64,000 nucleotides of DNA. It comes from Oceanobacillus oncorhynchi (lineage in GTDB: Bacteria > Bacillota > Bacilli > Bacillales > Amphibacillaceae). The notes under the pieces were generated by a model, which was not told where the DNA came from, searched no databases, and saw nothing but the letters and a program-made list of their open reading frames with translations. Location: NCBI RefSeq assembly GCF_000821065.1, contig NZ_CDGG01000001.1, positions 4,216,001 to 4,280,000 on the forward strand. The letters run 5' to 3'. Of this stretch, positions 14,324 through 26,980 are shown piece by piece (the first letter of the stretch is position 1; each line of letters starts with the position of its first letter). Both the position numbers and the translations under genes were made by a program.

Positions 14324-15100
14324 TTAAACCTGGGTGATTTTTTGCAGCGTTGAGCGTAATTTTGCAATGCTTCGCTTATGGATTTGTGAAATACGGGAAG
14401 TCGTTAATTCCAATACTTGTCCAATCTCTGTAAAGGTTAATTCCTCTTGATAAAAAAGACTGATAACAAGCTGTTCTTTTTCATTTAATGACTTGATTCC
14501 TTCTATTAATTCGTCCTTCCACTCTTCTTGGATAAGCCTTTCTTCTGGCCTGAGCTCCGGTTTATCTGATACATTGTAGCCAATACCTTCTTTCAGGTCA
14601 TTCTCCTGCCCCTTTGGTTTATCTTCAATAGAAAGCATGTTGCTCAGTACCATATCCCGTAATGTTATTTCGACGTCCTGAATAGGCATTCCTGTCATTT
14701 CGGCAATATCCTCCGGCTGTGCTTCCCGTTGATTTTTTTGCTCAAAAATCTCACTTGCCTGCTCCACCTTTTTTGTTTTCTCACGAATCGAACGTGGCAG
14801 CCAATCTTCTTTTCTTAATCCATCCATGATCGAACCTTTAATTCGAAATGAGGCATATGTATCAAATTTCAAATCACGTTTCAGCTCAAATTTGTGCAAT
14901 GCATCATACAGACCCAGCAAGCCATAGCTGCGGATTTCTTCACGATCCACACGATTAGGCAATTGACTTACAATTCTTTCCGTATGAAAGGAAACAAGAT
15001 ACATGTAGTTCTCAATGAGTAGATTTGCTGCTTCATTATCTTGACTGGTCATCCAATGCTTCCATAAAATTTGTTCTTGTGAAGGCTCTAATGAACTCAC
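14324..15100 (-). CDS. sigD: RNA polymerase sigma factor SigD (FliA family)
   Basis: A 258-residue sigma-28 family factor. Region 2 reads YMYLVSFHTERIV then EEIRSYGLLGLYDALHKFELKRDLKFDTYASFRIKGSIMDGLR, region 3 RSIREKTKKVEQA, and region 4 ends LTFTEIGQVLELTTSRISQIHKRSIAKLR. It drives late flagellar, chemotaxis and autolysin genes. As in B. subtilis it lies near the distal end of the fla/che operon, where its dose depends on full-length transcription. Length is typical. Confidence 0.97.
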   Translation of the reverse strand: MSSLEPSQEQILWKHWMTSQDNEAANLLIENYMYLVSFHTERIVSQLPNRVDREEIRSYGLLGLYDALHKFELKRDLKFDTYASFRIKGSIMDGLRKEDWLPRSIREKTKKVEQASEIFEQKNQREAQPEDIAEMTGMPIQDVEITLRDMVLSNMLSIEDKPKGQENDLKEGIGYNVSDKPELRPEERLIQEEWKDELIEGIKSLNEKEQLVISLFYQEELTFTEIGQVLELTTSRISQIHKRSIAKLRSTLQKITQV

Positions 15101-15124: not shown

Positions 15125-15616
15125 TTAAATTGTAAAGACATTCTGATTACGTTTTCTGATGGAAAGCTTGGACGTTACTGGATCAAACTCAATCGTTCTC
15201 CCCAAATTACCGCCTACATCTGAGGAAACAACTTTAATATTTAATTTTCGAAGCGCGTCCTGGACTGCTTCTATATTCTTATCACCAATCCGCATAAAGC
15301 TTGTTCCTTTACCAACCTGAAACATTTGCGCTCCCCCGGCCATTTTTGCTTTCATATTTCTGGCTCCCTGTTCCTGAAGCATTTCTAACAGCTGCGGGAT
15401 GGCTGTATCTGCATATTTCATCTCACTTATACTGCCGGCTCTTGCTTGGCTGGAGTCAGGCAATAAAATATGAGACAATCCAGCTATTCCACGCCTTTCA
15501 TCGTATAATACCGTTCCAATACAAGAGCCAAGCCCCAGCGTTCGAATCGTATTAGGGGATCGAACAATTTTCGTATCTGCAATACCGACATTTACAATTG
15601 TTTTCGTTATACTCAT
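15125..15616 (-). CDS. cheD: Chemoreceptor glutamine deamidase CheD
   Basis: A 163-residue deamidase. The catalytic cysteine is in LGLGSCIGTVLYD (C32) and the histidine in GLSHILLPDS (H49); both are intact, as is the later AGGAQMF loop. CheD deamidates receptor glutamines and binds CheC, raising CheC phosphatase activity in the Bacillus adaptation system. It starts one base after the cheC stop. Family length is normal. With cheA absent at this locus (see findings), its receptor and kinase partners must be encoded elsewhere or be missing. Confidence 0.96.
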   Translation of the reverse strand: MSITKTIVNVGIADTKIVRSPNTIRTLGLGSCIGTVLYDERRGIAGLSHILLPDSSQARAGSISEMKYADTAIPQLLEMLQEQGARNMKAKMAGGAQMFQVGKGTSFMRIGDKNIEAVQDALRKLNIKVVSSDVGGNLGRTIEFDPVTSKLSIRKRNQNVFTI

Positions 15617-15617
15617 C

Positions 15618-16256
15618 TTAAGACCATCCTAATTTGGCAAAGAGCTTTTGAAAAGATTCTGGATCAGGAATAAAAAGGAAATTCCCTCTAATCTGTTCAT
15701 GGCCTCGTTCCTCTTGCCTTATTTCCGTATCAATAATAATTGCATAATCTGTTACCTGAGAAATTTCTAATAAGCCCATTGTCATAATAGCACCAGCCAT
15801 ATCGATTCCCAGATGTGGAACAGAAGGCTGCAGATTCATACCAGTAAAGTCAGAAAGCGCGGTAAGATACGACCCGGTCAAAATATTTCCTATTTCACTT
15901 AATGCAGACATAGCAATCTCTAATTCTATTCCATCCGTCTCTTCTGATAATCGAAATTCCGGATTATGCGTCAGCTTTTGTACCAGATACTCTGCTTCTT
16001 CAATATCAACGACAATAGCCATTACACCCGTTATTTCCCCTTCCACCTGAAACATCAATCCGACAATAGGCTGTTCCGGTCCGCCAACCAATTCAATGAC
16101 TTCGTTAAAATCAGCAATCTCCACATTAGGAACCAGCATATCTATTTTATGACCCAACAGCTGTGATAAGGAGGTTGCAGCGTTTCCAGCACCTATATTC
16201 CCTATTTCTTTCAAAATATCCTTCTGAAAGCTCGTTAATTGGAAAACATCCATCAT
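15618..16256 (-). CDS. cheC: CheY-P phosphatase CheC
   Basis: A 212-residue CheC. Both active-site helices are present: the first with E17-x-x-N20 (LKEIGNIGAGNAATSL), the second with E121-x-x-N124 (SALSEIGNILTGSYLTAL). It hydrolyses CheY-phosphate and is paired with CheD. The start overlaps the cheW stop by four bases. It shares its fold with the N-terminal part of FliY in this same operon. Confidence 0.96.
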   Translation of the reverse strand: MMDVFQLTSFQKDILKEIGNIGAGNAATSLSQLLGHKIDMLVPNVEIADFNEVIELVGGPEQPIVGLMFQVEGEITGVMAIVVDIEEAEYLVQKLTHNPEFRLSEETDGIELEIAMSALSEIGNILTGSYLTALSDFTGMNLQPSVPHLGIDMAGAIMTMGLLEISQVTDYAIIIDTEIRQEERGHEQIRGNFLFIPDPESFQKLFAKLGWS

Positions 16257-16732
16257 TGATCATCCAATTCTTTTGTTTTTATTTCTTCTAAATTTAATAA
16301 TTTATAAATATCTAATAATACAATCAGCCGATTATCCAGATGAGCAATAGAATGGATGTATTCTTTTTTTACAGTGCCAATGGTTTCCGGAGGATTTTCC
16401 AAAAGATCAACCGGGATGTCTAGCACATCATTTGCATTGTCTATAATCAACCCAACTTGTGTCTCATCAATCTTGGTGATGATTATCTGATCTTCTTCCT
16501 TGTTATGCTCCGGCTCTTCTTCCAGCCGAATGCGCAAATCAATGACAGGAATAATCTTCCCTCTAAGATTAATCACACCTTTAATATAATTTTTTTCGTG
16601 CGGGACGCGTGTAATAGGCAAGGATGTTTCAATAGACTCTACAAAGTTCACCGGCAACCCATACTCACTGCCATTCAAATCAAAAATGATTGTTTTTTCT
16701 AATCTTTCTGGAGTTAACTGTTCTTGTGTCAT
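16253..16732 (-). CDS. cheW: Chemotaxis coupling protein CheW
   Basis: A 159-residue coupling protein that links chemoreceptors to the kinase CheA. It has the beta-barrel core with FDLNGSEYGLPVNFVESIE, ITRVPHEKNYIKGVINLRGKIIPVIDLR and VGLIIDNANDVLDI. It lies 26 bp downstream of cheB. In B. subtilis and most relatives cheA stands between them, so this gene is directly next to the deletion or relocation point. The ribosome binding site (GGAAGGGA) is modest but correctly placed. Confidence 0.96.
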   Translation of the reverse strand: MTQEQLTPERLEKTIIFDLNGSEYGLPVNFVESIETSLPITRVPHEKNYIKGVINLRGKIIPVIDLRIRLEEEPEHNKEEDQIIITKIDETQVGLIIDNANDVLDIPVDLLENPPETIGTVKKEYIHSIAHLDNRLIVLLDIYKLLNLEEIKTKELDDQ

Positions 16733-16758
16733 GCCAATCTTTCCCTTCCGGTTATTTG

Positions 16759-17826
16759 TTATTTAACAAGATTGCTCAGCTGGCTAGCCATTTGATTTAA
16801 TGGCACTTGATAATCAGCTAGCCCCTCATTGATAATAGACTTCGGCATTCCATATACAATAGCTGTCTCTTCTGTCTCTGCAAGTGAAACGACATGAGAA
16901 TTTGCTTTTTTCAATGCTTTTAAGCCAAGCGTACCGTCATTCCCCATCCCTGTTAAGACGCAGGTTACAATCTGATAATTCTTAAGAGAACACAGAGAGC
17001 GGAATAATGTATTGACGGACGGACGATGACCATTATCCAGCGGTTGTTGATTTAATGAAATCATTAATGCCATGCCGCTGCTTTTCACTTCCATATGGTA
17101 TCCGCCCGGCGCGATGTAGACCGTTCCCTTTTTCATTAATTCTCCATGTTCCGCTTCTTTAACAGTCAACCGGCTAATTTGATTTAACCGTTCTGCCAGA
17201 GACGCAGTAAATCCAGGAGGCATATGCTGTACAACAGCAACAGGAATACCAAGATCTTTCGGTAAAGCGGTAATGACTTTCTGCAGCGCTCTCGGGCCTC
17301 CAGTAGACGTTCCGATGGCAACCATTTTTTTGGAGGAAAGAGAGGGCTTCGCAGGCATTGTCAATGGCTGCTGTATACGTTCTATCGGCACATGCTGCGC
17401 TGCTCCATTTATTTTTTTATGTACTTTTACGGTTGCTGCTGTATAGACCTTGTCGCATATTTCTTTTTCTACCTTTTTTATATCTAATGAAATCGCTCCG
17501 GACGGCTTTGTAATAAAGTCAACCGCACCTGTCGAAATAGCCTGGATGGTATAATCAGCGCCTTTTCTTGTTTCACTGGACAGCATGACCACAGAAACAG
17601 GACATTCCTCCATAATCTGTTTTAAAGCTCCTAAACCATCCAGCTTCGGCATTTGGACATCCATGGTTACGACATCCGGATGCAGCTTTTTTACTTTATT
17701 TACCCCATCTTCGCCATGTACGGCAGTTCCAACTACATGAAATCTGCCATCCTCTGTTAAAATCTCAGAAATCATTTTTCTCATAAATGCAGAATCATCT
17801 ACGACAAGAACATTAATTAGAGTCAT
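16759..17826 (-). CDS. cheB: Protein-glutamate methylesterase/deamidase CheB
   Basis: A 355-residue two-domain enzyme. The receiver domain has D10/D11, the phosphorylated D56 (VVTMDVQMP) and KP at 107-108. After a linker, the methylesterase domain carries the catalytic S174 (GTSTGGPRAL), H201 (VVQHMPPGF) and D297 (GMGNDGTLG). It removes methyl groups from chemoreceptors once phosphorylated by CheA. Every key residue is intact, which argues against general decay of chemotaxis although cheA is not in its usual next position. Confidence 0.97.
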   Translation of the reverse strand: MTLINVLVVDDSAFMRKMISEILTEDGRFHVVGTAVHGEDGVNKVKKLHPDVVTMDVQMPKLDGLGALKQIMEECPVSVVMLSSETRKGADYTIQAISTGAVDFITKPSGAISLDIKKVEKEICDKVYTAATVKVHKKINGAAQHVPIERIQQPLTMPAKPSLSSKKMVAIGTSTGGPRALQKVITALPKDLGIPVAVVQHMPPGFTASLAERLNQISRLTVKEAEHGELMKKGTVYIAPGGYHMEVKSSGMALMISLNQQPLDNGHRPSVNTLFRSLCSLKNYQIVTCVLTGMGNDGTLGLKALKKANSHVVSLAETEETAIVYGMPKSIINEGLADYQVPLNQMASQLSNLVK

Positions 17827-17830
17827 TTCT

Positions 17831-18682
17831 TCACCCCTTCATGAAATGTTTTATCCGTTCTATGAAACTGCCAGATTTACGTACCGTTTTGTTTGTGTCA
17901 TTTACGTACATTTGCAGGATCGACTCCATTGCTTTGGAAGCCTTCGTTTTCGGATATAACTTGGTATACGGTTTTTGATGCATGACAGCTTTCATTATAT
18001 TTCCGTCTTCTGGAATACAACCTAATCTTCGAGCCTCTGCGTCCAGAAAGCGGCGAATAACCGTGTGGAAATTACCGAGAATATTGCTGCCCTCTGTTTT
18101 ATTCCTTGAACGATTTAAAATAGTATAGATTGGCATATCCGGCTGATTAGATAATATATGCTTCACCATTCCATATGCATCCGTAATGGACGTCGGTTCA
18201 GGCGTAGTGACAATAAAACATTCATCTGCTGCCAAAATAAAAAATAATGAAGTCTCTGTCACACCAGCACCCATATCAAATAACACATAATCATATTCTC
18301 GCCATACCTTTTCCAGCCCTTGATAAAAAATAGCTTTCTTATGCTCATTAATTTCTAAGAAATCGTGCAGGCCAGAACCTCCGGGAATATAATCTATGCC
18401 ATAAGGACTTTTTACAATGGCGTCCTGAATGGAAATTTTATTATTTAAAACATCGGCAATAGAATAGTCTGTCTGCATACCAAGGAGTAAATCGATATTT
18501 CCCATTCCTACATCTAAATCAAATACCAGGATTTTATGATTCTCCTGTGCAAGTTTCATCGAAAAATTAAGTGTGAAATTTGATTTTCCTACACCGCCTT
18601 TTCCGCTGCAAACAGCAATCGTTTTTGCTGTCCTTTCAGGGGATAGCCGGTTTCGGAGCTGTTCAGCCTGGTCATAGCTCAT
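17831..18682 (-). CDS. flhG: Flagellar number regulator FlhG (YlxH), MinD-like ATPase
   Basis: A 283-residue MinD/ParA-type ATPase with a deviant Walker A SGKGGVGKS (26-34), switch I DLDVGMGNIDLLLG and Walker B DYVLFDMGAG. It activates the FlhF GTPase and helps limit and place flagella. The gene overlaps flhF by four bases and is followed by cheB after four bases, matching the usual order. The C-terminus is basic and could bind membrane. Confidence 0.95.
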   Translation of the reverse strand: MSYDQAEQLRNRLSPERTAKTIAVCSGKGGVGKSNFTLNFSMKLAQENHKILVFDLDVGMGNIDLLLGMQTDYSIADVLNNKISIQDAIVKSPYGIDYIPGGSGLHDFLEINEHKKAIFYQGLEKVWREYDYVLFDMGAGVTETSLFFILAADECFIVTTPEPTSITDAYGMVKHILSNQPDMPIYTILNRSRNKTEGSNILGNFHTVIRRFLDAEARRLGCIPEDGNIMKAVMHQKPYTKLYPKTKASKAMESILQMYVNDTNKTVRKSGSFIERIKHFMKG

Positions 18683-25362: not shown

Positions 25363-25725
25363 TTAGCCGAGTGCTTTTTGAATTGCTTCAATGACACGAT
25401 CTGCTTGGAATGGTTTAACAATAAAGTCTTTTGCTCCGGCCTGGATAGCATCAATAACCATTGCCTGCTGTCCCATAGCTGAACACATAATGACTTTTGC
25501 ATTTGAATTAACCTGAAGAATTTCTTTTAATGCTGCTAATCCATCTTTTTCCGGCATCGTAATATCCATTGTTACTAAATCAGGCTGAAGTTCCTTATAT
25601 TTTTCAACAGCTTCGTTGCCGTCCTGTGCTTCTCCAACCACTTCAAAATCATTCTTTGTTAAAATATCCTTGATCATCATTCTCATAAAAGCTGCATCAT
25701 CTACTATTAAAATCTTTTGGCCCAT
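25363..25725 (-). CDS. cheY: Chemotaxis response regulator CheY
   Basis: A 120-residue single receiver domain with acidic pocket D9/D10, phospho-acceptor D54 (LVTMDITMPEKDG), and K104 in FIVKPF. AAGGAGAGAG stands seven bases before the ATG at 25723-25725, so I use this start rather than a TTG six codons upstream. CheY-P acts on FliM/FliY in the C-ring; in Bacillus it promotes counterclockwise rotation. All residues needed for phosphorylation are present although no cheA is in the operon. Confidence 0.96.
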   Translation of the reverse strand: MGQKILIVDDAAFMRMMIKDILTKNDFEVVGEAQDGNEAVEKYKELQPDLVTMDITMPEKDGLAALKEILQVNSNAKVIMCSAMGQQAMVIDAIQAGAKDFIVKPFQADRVIEAIQKALG

Positions 25726-25762
25726 TTTTTCTCTCTCCTTCAATATACCTAATTATGCATAT

Positions 25763-26980
25763 CTATTTTCTTAAATGCTGGATTCTATCATGCTGACTGA
25801 CGATATCTGTTACACGAACCCCAAAGTTTTCGTCAATAACTACGACTTCTCCTTCAGCAACTAATTTTTCATTTACCAGAATATCTACAGGTTCTCCCGC
25901 CAGTTTATCTAATTCAATAATAGAGCCGGCTCCCAGTTCTAATATTTCCTTGATAGACTGCTTTGTCCTGCCCAATTCCACAGTGACTCTTAATGGAATA
26001 TCCATTAACATATCTAAATTCCGCTGCCCTTGATAATTGAGCGGAGCCTGCTCGAATTCAGAAAATGCTGCTTCCTGGACATCCGCTTCCTGGGAGCTTG
26101 GTCTTCCTAAAATCTCATCATTTTTTTGATTCGTAGTTCCTGTATTTCCAGCAGGCCTGACAGGTTGTTCTTGTTCAGCCTGTTTCTCTTCAGTTACCGG
26201 CGCAGCAGCAACTGCTGAATGCGTATTTACACTTGCTGCAGTCTGACTTACTGCTGTTTCTGGTTCCTCTTTGACAGAAGGCTCTTCTTTAGCTTCAGGA
26301 GCCGGATTCATTAATTGGTGTACTAATTCTTTAGCAAAATCCAACGGAACCAGCTGTACCATATTGGAATCTATTAAATCTCCAACCATTAACTTGAAAA
26401 ATACTTTAACGTACACTTCGTCTTTAAATAAACCTTCTTTTTTTTGATTTTCCAGTCCATGAATAATCTCAGGCGGTGAAATATCTATTTTCTTATTAAA
26501 TACAGTAGACATGCTGGTAGCAGCTGCTCCCATCATCTGATTCATGGCTTCTTGAACGGCACTTAGGTGCATTTCGTTCAGTTCTTTATCCGGGTTTGTC
26601 CCGTCTCCGCCAAGCATGATATCTGCGATTACTGCCGCATCCTCTGATTTAATGAAAAACACATTATTGCCAGTAAAGCCTTCTATGTAATTAACTTGAA
26701 CACTCACAGGTTTAAATGTAACTTCTTCTTCTAATTGATCCTTGCCAATCACCGTGACAGCCGGTGTAGTAATTTCTACCTTCTGGTTTAACAGTGTAGA
26801 CAGTGTAGTAGCAGAGCTTCCAAAGGAAATATTACCGATTTCCCCCAAAGCATCCTTTTCGATACTTGTTAAAAATGCTTCGTCTGCCGTCTGCTCCTGC
26901 TGGTCATCCTCCTGTTCATCTGCAGGCACCTTAAGCAGGGCATCTATTTCTTCTTGTGACAGCTTGCCGTCATTCATCAT
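25763..26980 (-). CDS. fliY: Flagellar C-ring switch protein / CheY-P phosphatase FliY
   Basis: A 405-residue switch protein. The N-terminus has the CheY-binding EIDALLKV motif, the middle a CheC-like domain with two active-site helices (LGEIGNISFGSSATTL and EAMNQMMGAAATSM), then a long alanine/glutamate/glutamine-rich linker (about 225-315), and a C-terminal SpoA/FliN domain (DIPLRVTVELGRTKQSIKEILELGAGS). It takes the place of FliN in Bacillus. It overlaps fliM by 11 bases. In the second helix the ExxN motif reads EAMN, so the phosphatase sites look present. Confidence 0.95.
   Translation of the reverse strand: MMNDGKLSQEEIDALLKVPADEQEDDQQEQTADEAFLTSIEKDALGEIGNISFGSSATTLSTLLNQKVEITTPAVTVIGKDQLEEEVTFKPVSVQVNYIEGFTGNNVFFIKSEDAAVIADIMLGGDGTNPDKELNEMHLSAVQEAMNQMMGAAATSMSTVFNKKIDISPPEIIHGLENQKKEGLFKDEVYVKVFFKLMVGDLIDSNMVQLVPLDFAKELVHQLMNPAPEAKEEPSVKEEPETAVSQTAASVNTHSAVAAAPVTEEKQAEQEQPVRPAGNTGTTNQKNDEILGRPSSQEADVQEAAFSEFEQAPLNYQGQRNLDMLMDIPLRVTVELGRTKQSIKEILELGAGSIIELDKLAGEPVDILVNEKLVAEGEVVVIDENFGVRVTDIVSQHDRIQHLRK

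Follow-up and report, generated by a model that had tools for sequence, protein, structure and literature searches.

In the B. subtilis type of fla/che operon, the gene for the chemotaxis kinase CheA has a fixed place in the order flhF-flhG-cheB-cheA-cheW-cheC-cheD-sigD, and we saw the same order in relatives of the organism studied here. In E. coli, cheA belongs to the motA-motB-cheA-cheW ('mocha') operon. More than one CheA can occupy a cell, several being reported for Rhodobacter sphaeroides; two kinds of CheA likewise coexist in part of the bacterial family considered here, where, unlike in R. sphaeroides, one of the two appears to have been lost repeatedly while the other remains. The gene table of Virgibacillus halodenitrificans ASH15 lists cheD-cheC-cheW-cheB-flhG without cheA, together with a separate motA-motB-cheX-cheA-cheW-cheY block, and the missing cheA draws no remark in the available portion of that paper (PMC10556750). 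We found the same block in V. halodenitrificans JCM 12304 (L217).

The window, the whole stretch of 64,000 nucleotides analysed here, carries a fla/che operon on the minus strand. Its che and fliY-like genes were identified by domain-level Pfam matches, and the genes around the cheB-cheW junction follow the B. subtilis-type order, except that cheA is absent and the kinase gene lies at a distal second locus. The receptor methylesterase gene cheB, with a receiver domain (16759..17826; Response_reg and CheB_methylest), is followed by cheW (16253..16732; CheW), cheC (15618..16256; CheC), cheD (15125..15616; CheD) and an ORF for a flagellar sigma factor with syntenic homologues in relatives, which from likeness and position we take to be sigD (14324..15100). 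On the other side of cheB lies an ORF, also with syntenic homologues in relatives, that is presumably flhG (17831..18682). The cheY of the operon (25363..25743; Response_reg, translation and genome search) and a fliY-like motor switch gene with CheC, CheX and FliMN_C domains (25763..26980) are found further out on that side, on the same strand. Only 26 bp (16733..16758, minus strand) separate cheB from cheW, and they contain no cheA, at a slot that a gene of about 2 kb fills in most relatives. This absence had been noticed in a sequence-only reading of the DNA, and the Pfam assignment of both flanking ORFs as CheB and CheW bears it out. The same reading held that cheA fills the slot in B. subtilis and most motile Bacillaceae. 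Among relatives, CheA adjoins CheB, with no second CheA listed, in 75/120 family genomes and in a further 8/120 that also have a distal one.

The genome is Oceanobacillus-like and complete in one contig of 4,608,004 bases (4.61 Mb). Searching it with the CheA dimerisation domain (PF02895) returned one gene, C1:1081677-1083767, and a whole-protein CheA search likewise gave one match. The product of 696 residues contains Hpt, P2, H-kinase_dim, HATPase_c and CheW domains, all above Pfam cut-offs, and thus has the makeup of a CheA histidine kinase, with a P1 domain bearing a phosphorylatable histidine, P2, dimerisation and HATPase_c domains and a CheW-like P5. His46 is invariant in 14 distal CheAs, as are residues that we take to belong to the ATP-binding boxes. 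The gene sits beside its own cheW and downstream of motA-motB in a motA-motB-cheA-cheW cluster (C1:1,080,033-1,084,284; L002 7233-11484), a second, motAB-linked module that in this genome holds no cheX and no cheY. Its distance from cheB is 3.15 Mb on the contig as written; on a circular molecule the shorter route would measure about 1.46 Mb. Downstream of the distal cheW, a broken frame read by eye (L002:11770-12230) bears what we take to be a resemblance to TnpB/OrfB proteins of IS200/IS605 elements.

The sequence-only reading had pointed to the rest of the genome as the place to look for CheA domains, receptors, CheV and CheR, and whole-genome searches gave, beside the single CheA, eight receptors and one CheR. 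CheW domains number three (the fla/che CheW, the distal CheW and the P5 of CheA), and no CheV-like extra CheW domain was found anywhere in the genome. Four receptor genes, half of the genome's eight, stand in a close row at C1:885333-892623 (L004-L007). The CheX model matched FliY only, plus CheC below the cut-off. The genome search found no second CheY of the module kind: the best match to the CheY of the distal module was the fla/che CheY (69% identity), followed by the receiver of CheB (42%). On paper, then, the chemotaxis machinery is complete.

The nearest CheAs among named genomes, a collection that may omit the closest kin of the window genome, belong to two Oceanobacillus sojae strains (88% identity), and the next nearest to O. 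damuensis, O. arenosus, O. caeni and O. alkalisoli, all in the distal context. Every one of the 28 genus genomes examined has a CheA match. A full distal CheA accompanies cheB in 27 of them, the two lying on separate contigs or about 446 kb or more apart, and in these 27, window genome included, cheB runs directly into cheW over a gap of 17-741 bp. In three genus genomes unassigned sequence occupies the gap (G281, 741 bp, L354; G288, 264 bp, L343; G293, 234 bp, L346) and holds no CheA relic above chance. In the remaining genus genome, G290 (L377), the distal cheA is reduced to a 330-bp C-terminal remnant, and CheB methylesterase gave no match.

Across the family, counts were made by comparing the listed places of CheA and CheB, in which weak matches are absent. 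An adjacent, fla/che-type CheA with no second one listed occurs in 75/120 genomes, full-length adjacent and distal CheAs together in 8/120, and cheB with only a non-adjacent CheA in 21/120; another 8/120 have a non-adjacent CheA and no listed cheB, decayed fla operons among them, and 8/120 list neither gene. In total, cheB is listed for 104 family genomes, 21 of which lack the adjacent cheA. Twenty of the 21 possess a full CheA that falls in the distal clade; in the other, G093, which was set aside, CheA is present solely as fragments located at contig ends. In three genomes (G050, G033 and G028; L103, L104 and L105), flhG is followed by a shortened cheA and sigD, with cheB, cheW, cheC and cheD not found between them, and these operons apparently represent a decay of chemotaxis in which flagellar genes are kept.

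Outside the family, the gene order cheB-cheA-cheW occurs at 24/28 and 17/20 loci from other families of the same taxonomic order and at 18/29 phylum-level loci. The 48 order-level CheA loci comprise 41 of the fla/che kind, six in a third arrangement and one that was not classed (G153). This third arrangement, a distal cheA-cheW-cheY, was seen in other families at L140, L142, L151, L154, L278 and L288 and also at L220, L221, L244, L245, L251 and L252, its hosts including Alkalihalophilus pseudofirmus OF4 and Halalkalibacter. In four of the first six loci cheX follows cheA-cheW-cheY, and the CheAs of these six form a clade of their own (100/100, 58-row tree); there too cheA lies outside the cheB-cheW slot. 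In Cytobacillus massiliigabonensis (L258), cheA-cheW occurs twice in tandem inside the fla/che operon, a possible starting point for swaps of this kind.

We consider it very probable that the pathway lost its fla/che cheA by deletion at the original site and now runs on a second, paralogous or anciently acquired, distal CheA. An artefact of assembly, with cheA collapsed at the cheB-cheW junction, has nothing that we could see in its favour and a negligible probability, because the genome is a single contig and, when the junction was compared in related species as the sequence-only reading had proposed, cheB led directly into cheW in 27/27 genus genomes with cheB. That reading had also suggested an unrelated kinase serving the response regulators, or a recent loss of the kinase. 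The former is at odds with a distal gene that encodes a full five-domain CheA, the latter with a genome that has CheA, eight receptors and one CheR and shares its direct junction with the whole set of cheB-bearing genus genomes. More generally, a pathway without a working kinase, in which CheB, CheY, CheC and CheD either depend on a different kinase or are in decay, draws its only support from the gene missing at the junction; it has to contend with an intact CheA carrying all its domains, with the receptors and CheR, and with the invariance of His46 and the putative ATP-box residues across the 14 distal CheAs. The whole-genome searches rule it out for practical purposes, and we regard it as very improbable.

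A further suggestion of the sequence-only reading, that cheA had moved elsewhere, proved right in that a CheA is encoded elsewhere and wrong as to the move, since the distal gene is of a second lineage that coexists with the fla/che cheA in 8/120 family genomes. In a 101-row CheA tree, all 29 distal CheAs of the family fall in one group (SH-aLRT 99), and 31 family fla/che CheAs in another (87), together with fla/che CheAs of other families. A careful 58-row tree likewise unites all 18 distal rows in one clade (100/99); in it the order-level row G154 falls among the family fla/che CheAs, the latter not being strictly one group. A simple translocation, in which the fla/che cheA itself moved beside motAB in the ancestor of the genus, would match one gene missing between cheB and cheW and one present at the distal locus. 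However, the distal CheAs of the genus group with those of genomes that retain the fla/che copy and not with CheAs encoded between cheB and cheW, and the distal cluster carries its own cheW, in relatives also cheX and cheY. In AU tests, which were run on the 58-row rather than the 101-row set, joining five distal genus CheAs, a group named after the tree was seen, with 15 family fla/che CheAs cost 205.7 log units and was rejected (p 7.25e-5). Trees and AU test together lead us to reject a simple move of cheA, to which we assign a small probability. Twelve alignment columns, defined without the genus rows, separate the distal from the fla/che kind; in each of the nine genus rows, 7-9 of these columns are of the distal and 3-5 of the fla/che state (7 and 5 in this genome), a signature consistent, though imperfectly, with the distal clade.

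A takeover by a younger second CheA overlaps with our preferred reading and is possible, if rather unlikely: a copy of the fla/che cheA would have been made inside the family and the original then lost in several genera. The AU test did not reject (p 0.207) a single group that unites the distal with the family's fla/che CheAs and three nearby rows of the order, the 28 rows representing the order's other families all fall outside the distal clade of the 101-row tree, and the order-level loci, with their 41 fla/che, six third-arrangement and one unclassed members, are in line with such a local origin. Against this, the best trees do not nest the distal clade within the fla/che CheAs of the Bacillales but place it outside them (95/91, 58-row tree). 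The module may have arisen by an old duplication, a younger duplication or a transfer. As to the E. coli 'mocha' operon, its four genes stand in the same order as those of the distal cluster, but the CheA here belongs with Bacillales CheAs in trees built without an E. coli CheA, and the cluster of relatives is larger, with cheX and cheY; on both grounds the likeness in order is probably convergent.

We searched for relics of cheA in 13 of 36 junctions, those longer than 40 bp, nine of them from the genus. One junction, that of G032, gave a relic (E < 0.01), and none of the nine within the genus did. In G032 the cheB-cheW gap is 196 bp, and a stretch of 24-31 residues right behind cheB matches the N-terminus of CheA. 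It was hit by 14/14 fla/che CheA queries at E 1.2e-4 or better when these were run against the 13 junctions, as compared with E 0.01 for the best of 50 shuffles. Rescaled to a 4-Mb genome, the E-values range from 1.7e-4 to 0.21, so that the call rests on the place of the match behind cheB together with its score. Judged by this sequence, the G032 junction holds a decayed N-terminal piece of the deleted cheA. Weak matches in G281 (E 0.76) and G293 (E 0.056) are at chance level. No CheW was found between cheB and cheC of G030 and G034, which are 14 and 40 bp apart, respectively; in these genomes cheW is therefore gone as well as cheA.

We further mapped the presence of the fla/che cheA onto a housekeeping tree built from four proteins, RpsB, Tsf, PyrH and Frr, and counted the changes required. 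The 40 rows of the tree comprise 39 family genomes (20 distal-only, eight with both CheAs and 11 of the 75 adjacent-only genomes) and one outgroup; several Frr frames are short, and G112 was dropped, having none of the four genes in its stretch. This tree was used in place of one from FlhG and CheB (50 genomes), which had long branches and split the genus. At least six changes are needed. Repeated loss of the fla/che cheA would be the simplest account, because cheB-cheA-cheW is the common order outside the family, though the six changes may include regains. The housekeeping tree leaves the genus in two groups at an unsupported fork and does not show a single loss for the genus as a whole.

Distal clusters outside the genus typically read motA-motB-cheX-cheA-cheW-cheY-receptor. 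Within the sequence retrieved around each locus, which in some cases stops at a contig edge, cheX is present in 18/20 clusters outside the genus versus 11/27 within it, and cheY in 17/20 versus 0/27, the whole-genome search for the module CheY having covered the window genome. On the same footing, motA is present in 19/27 genus clusters. V. halodenitrificans ASH15 resembles the window genome in its cheB-cheW junction without cheA and its separate motAB-cheA block but, according to its gene table, keeps cheX and a second cheY, both of which are absent here (PMC10556750).

We also looked for signals that could tie the distal locus to the fla/che operon. A -10-like motif, NCCGATAN, which was picked after being seen in the window genome, lies upstream of motA in 24/34 loci versus 231/4700 random 200-mers. 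It precedes motA in all 19 genus loci that hold this gene, most of them having a CTTCA- or CTACA-like sequence roughly 15 bases further upstream, and it is found upstream of 26/142 long ORFs of the 19 loci, motA included. SigD boxes follow the pattern TAAA-N15-GCCGATAT. No SigD promoter of this consensus was found in L002, and a looser full SigD pattern occurs in 1/34 loci versus 77/4700 random 200-mers. SigD control, and with it co-expression of the two loci through a SigD-like promoter upstream of motA, is thus a lead only, because the -35 letters do not fit the consensus.

Taken together, these observations suggest the following course of events. Part of the family has a second chemotaxis module, motA-motB-[receptor]-cheX-cheA-cheW-cheY-[receptor]. 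The fla/che cheA would then have been deleted in the genus (27/27 genomes with cheB) and in several other genera, the CheA of the module taking over the fla/che pathway after the deletion, and the motA-motB-cheA-cheW cluster of the window genome would be a trimmed form of the module. The distal CheA presumably forms arrays with the receptors of the genome and either CheW. It should drive the fla/che CheY and CheB, phosphorylating them through its P2 domain, since no module-type CheY was found in the genome. On this reading, a related kinase belonging to a stator-linked module has apparently supplanted the core kinase of an otherwise intact operon, in every genus genome examined that keeps cheB and on several occasions in the family. 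A bolder version, which we find doubtful, sees a complete stator-linked second module whose kinase repeatedly displaced the core kinase, and in which, where a lineage has both kinases, the two may share one motor and one receptor set, the signalling of the module being coupled to stator supply.

The bare gene order is already in print for V. halodenitrificans ASH15 (PMC10556750). Among the matches listed, as represented by titles and abstract openings, we found no paper that describes a replacement of CheA, nor did this literature yield the explanation by two lineages; PMC3513319, in the portion available, names Oceanobacillus once, in a passage on the conservation of CheD. If the displacement is real, a pathway that looks broken would be a natural experiment in which the central chemotaxis kinase was swapped while its partners stayed in place. 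The recognition of CheY, CheB, CheW and receptors by CheA could then be tested directly in relatives with the old kinase only, with both, and with the other only. The case would also caution against calling a chemotaxis pathway broken from a single operon.
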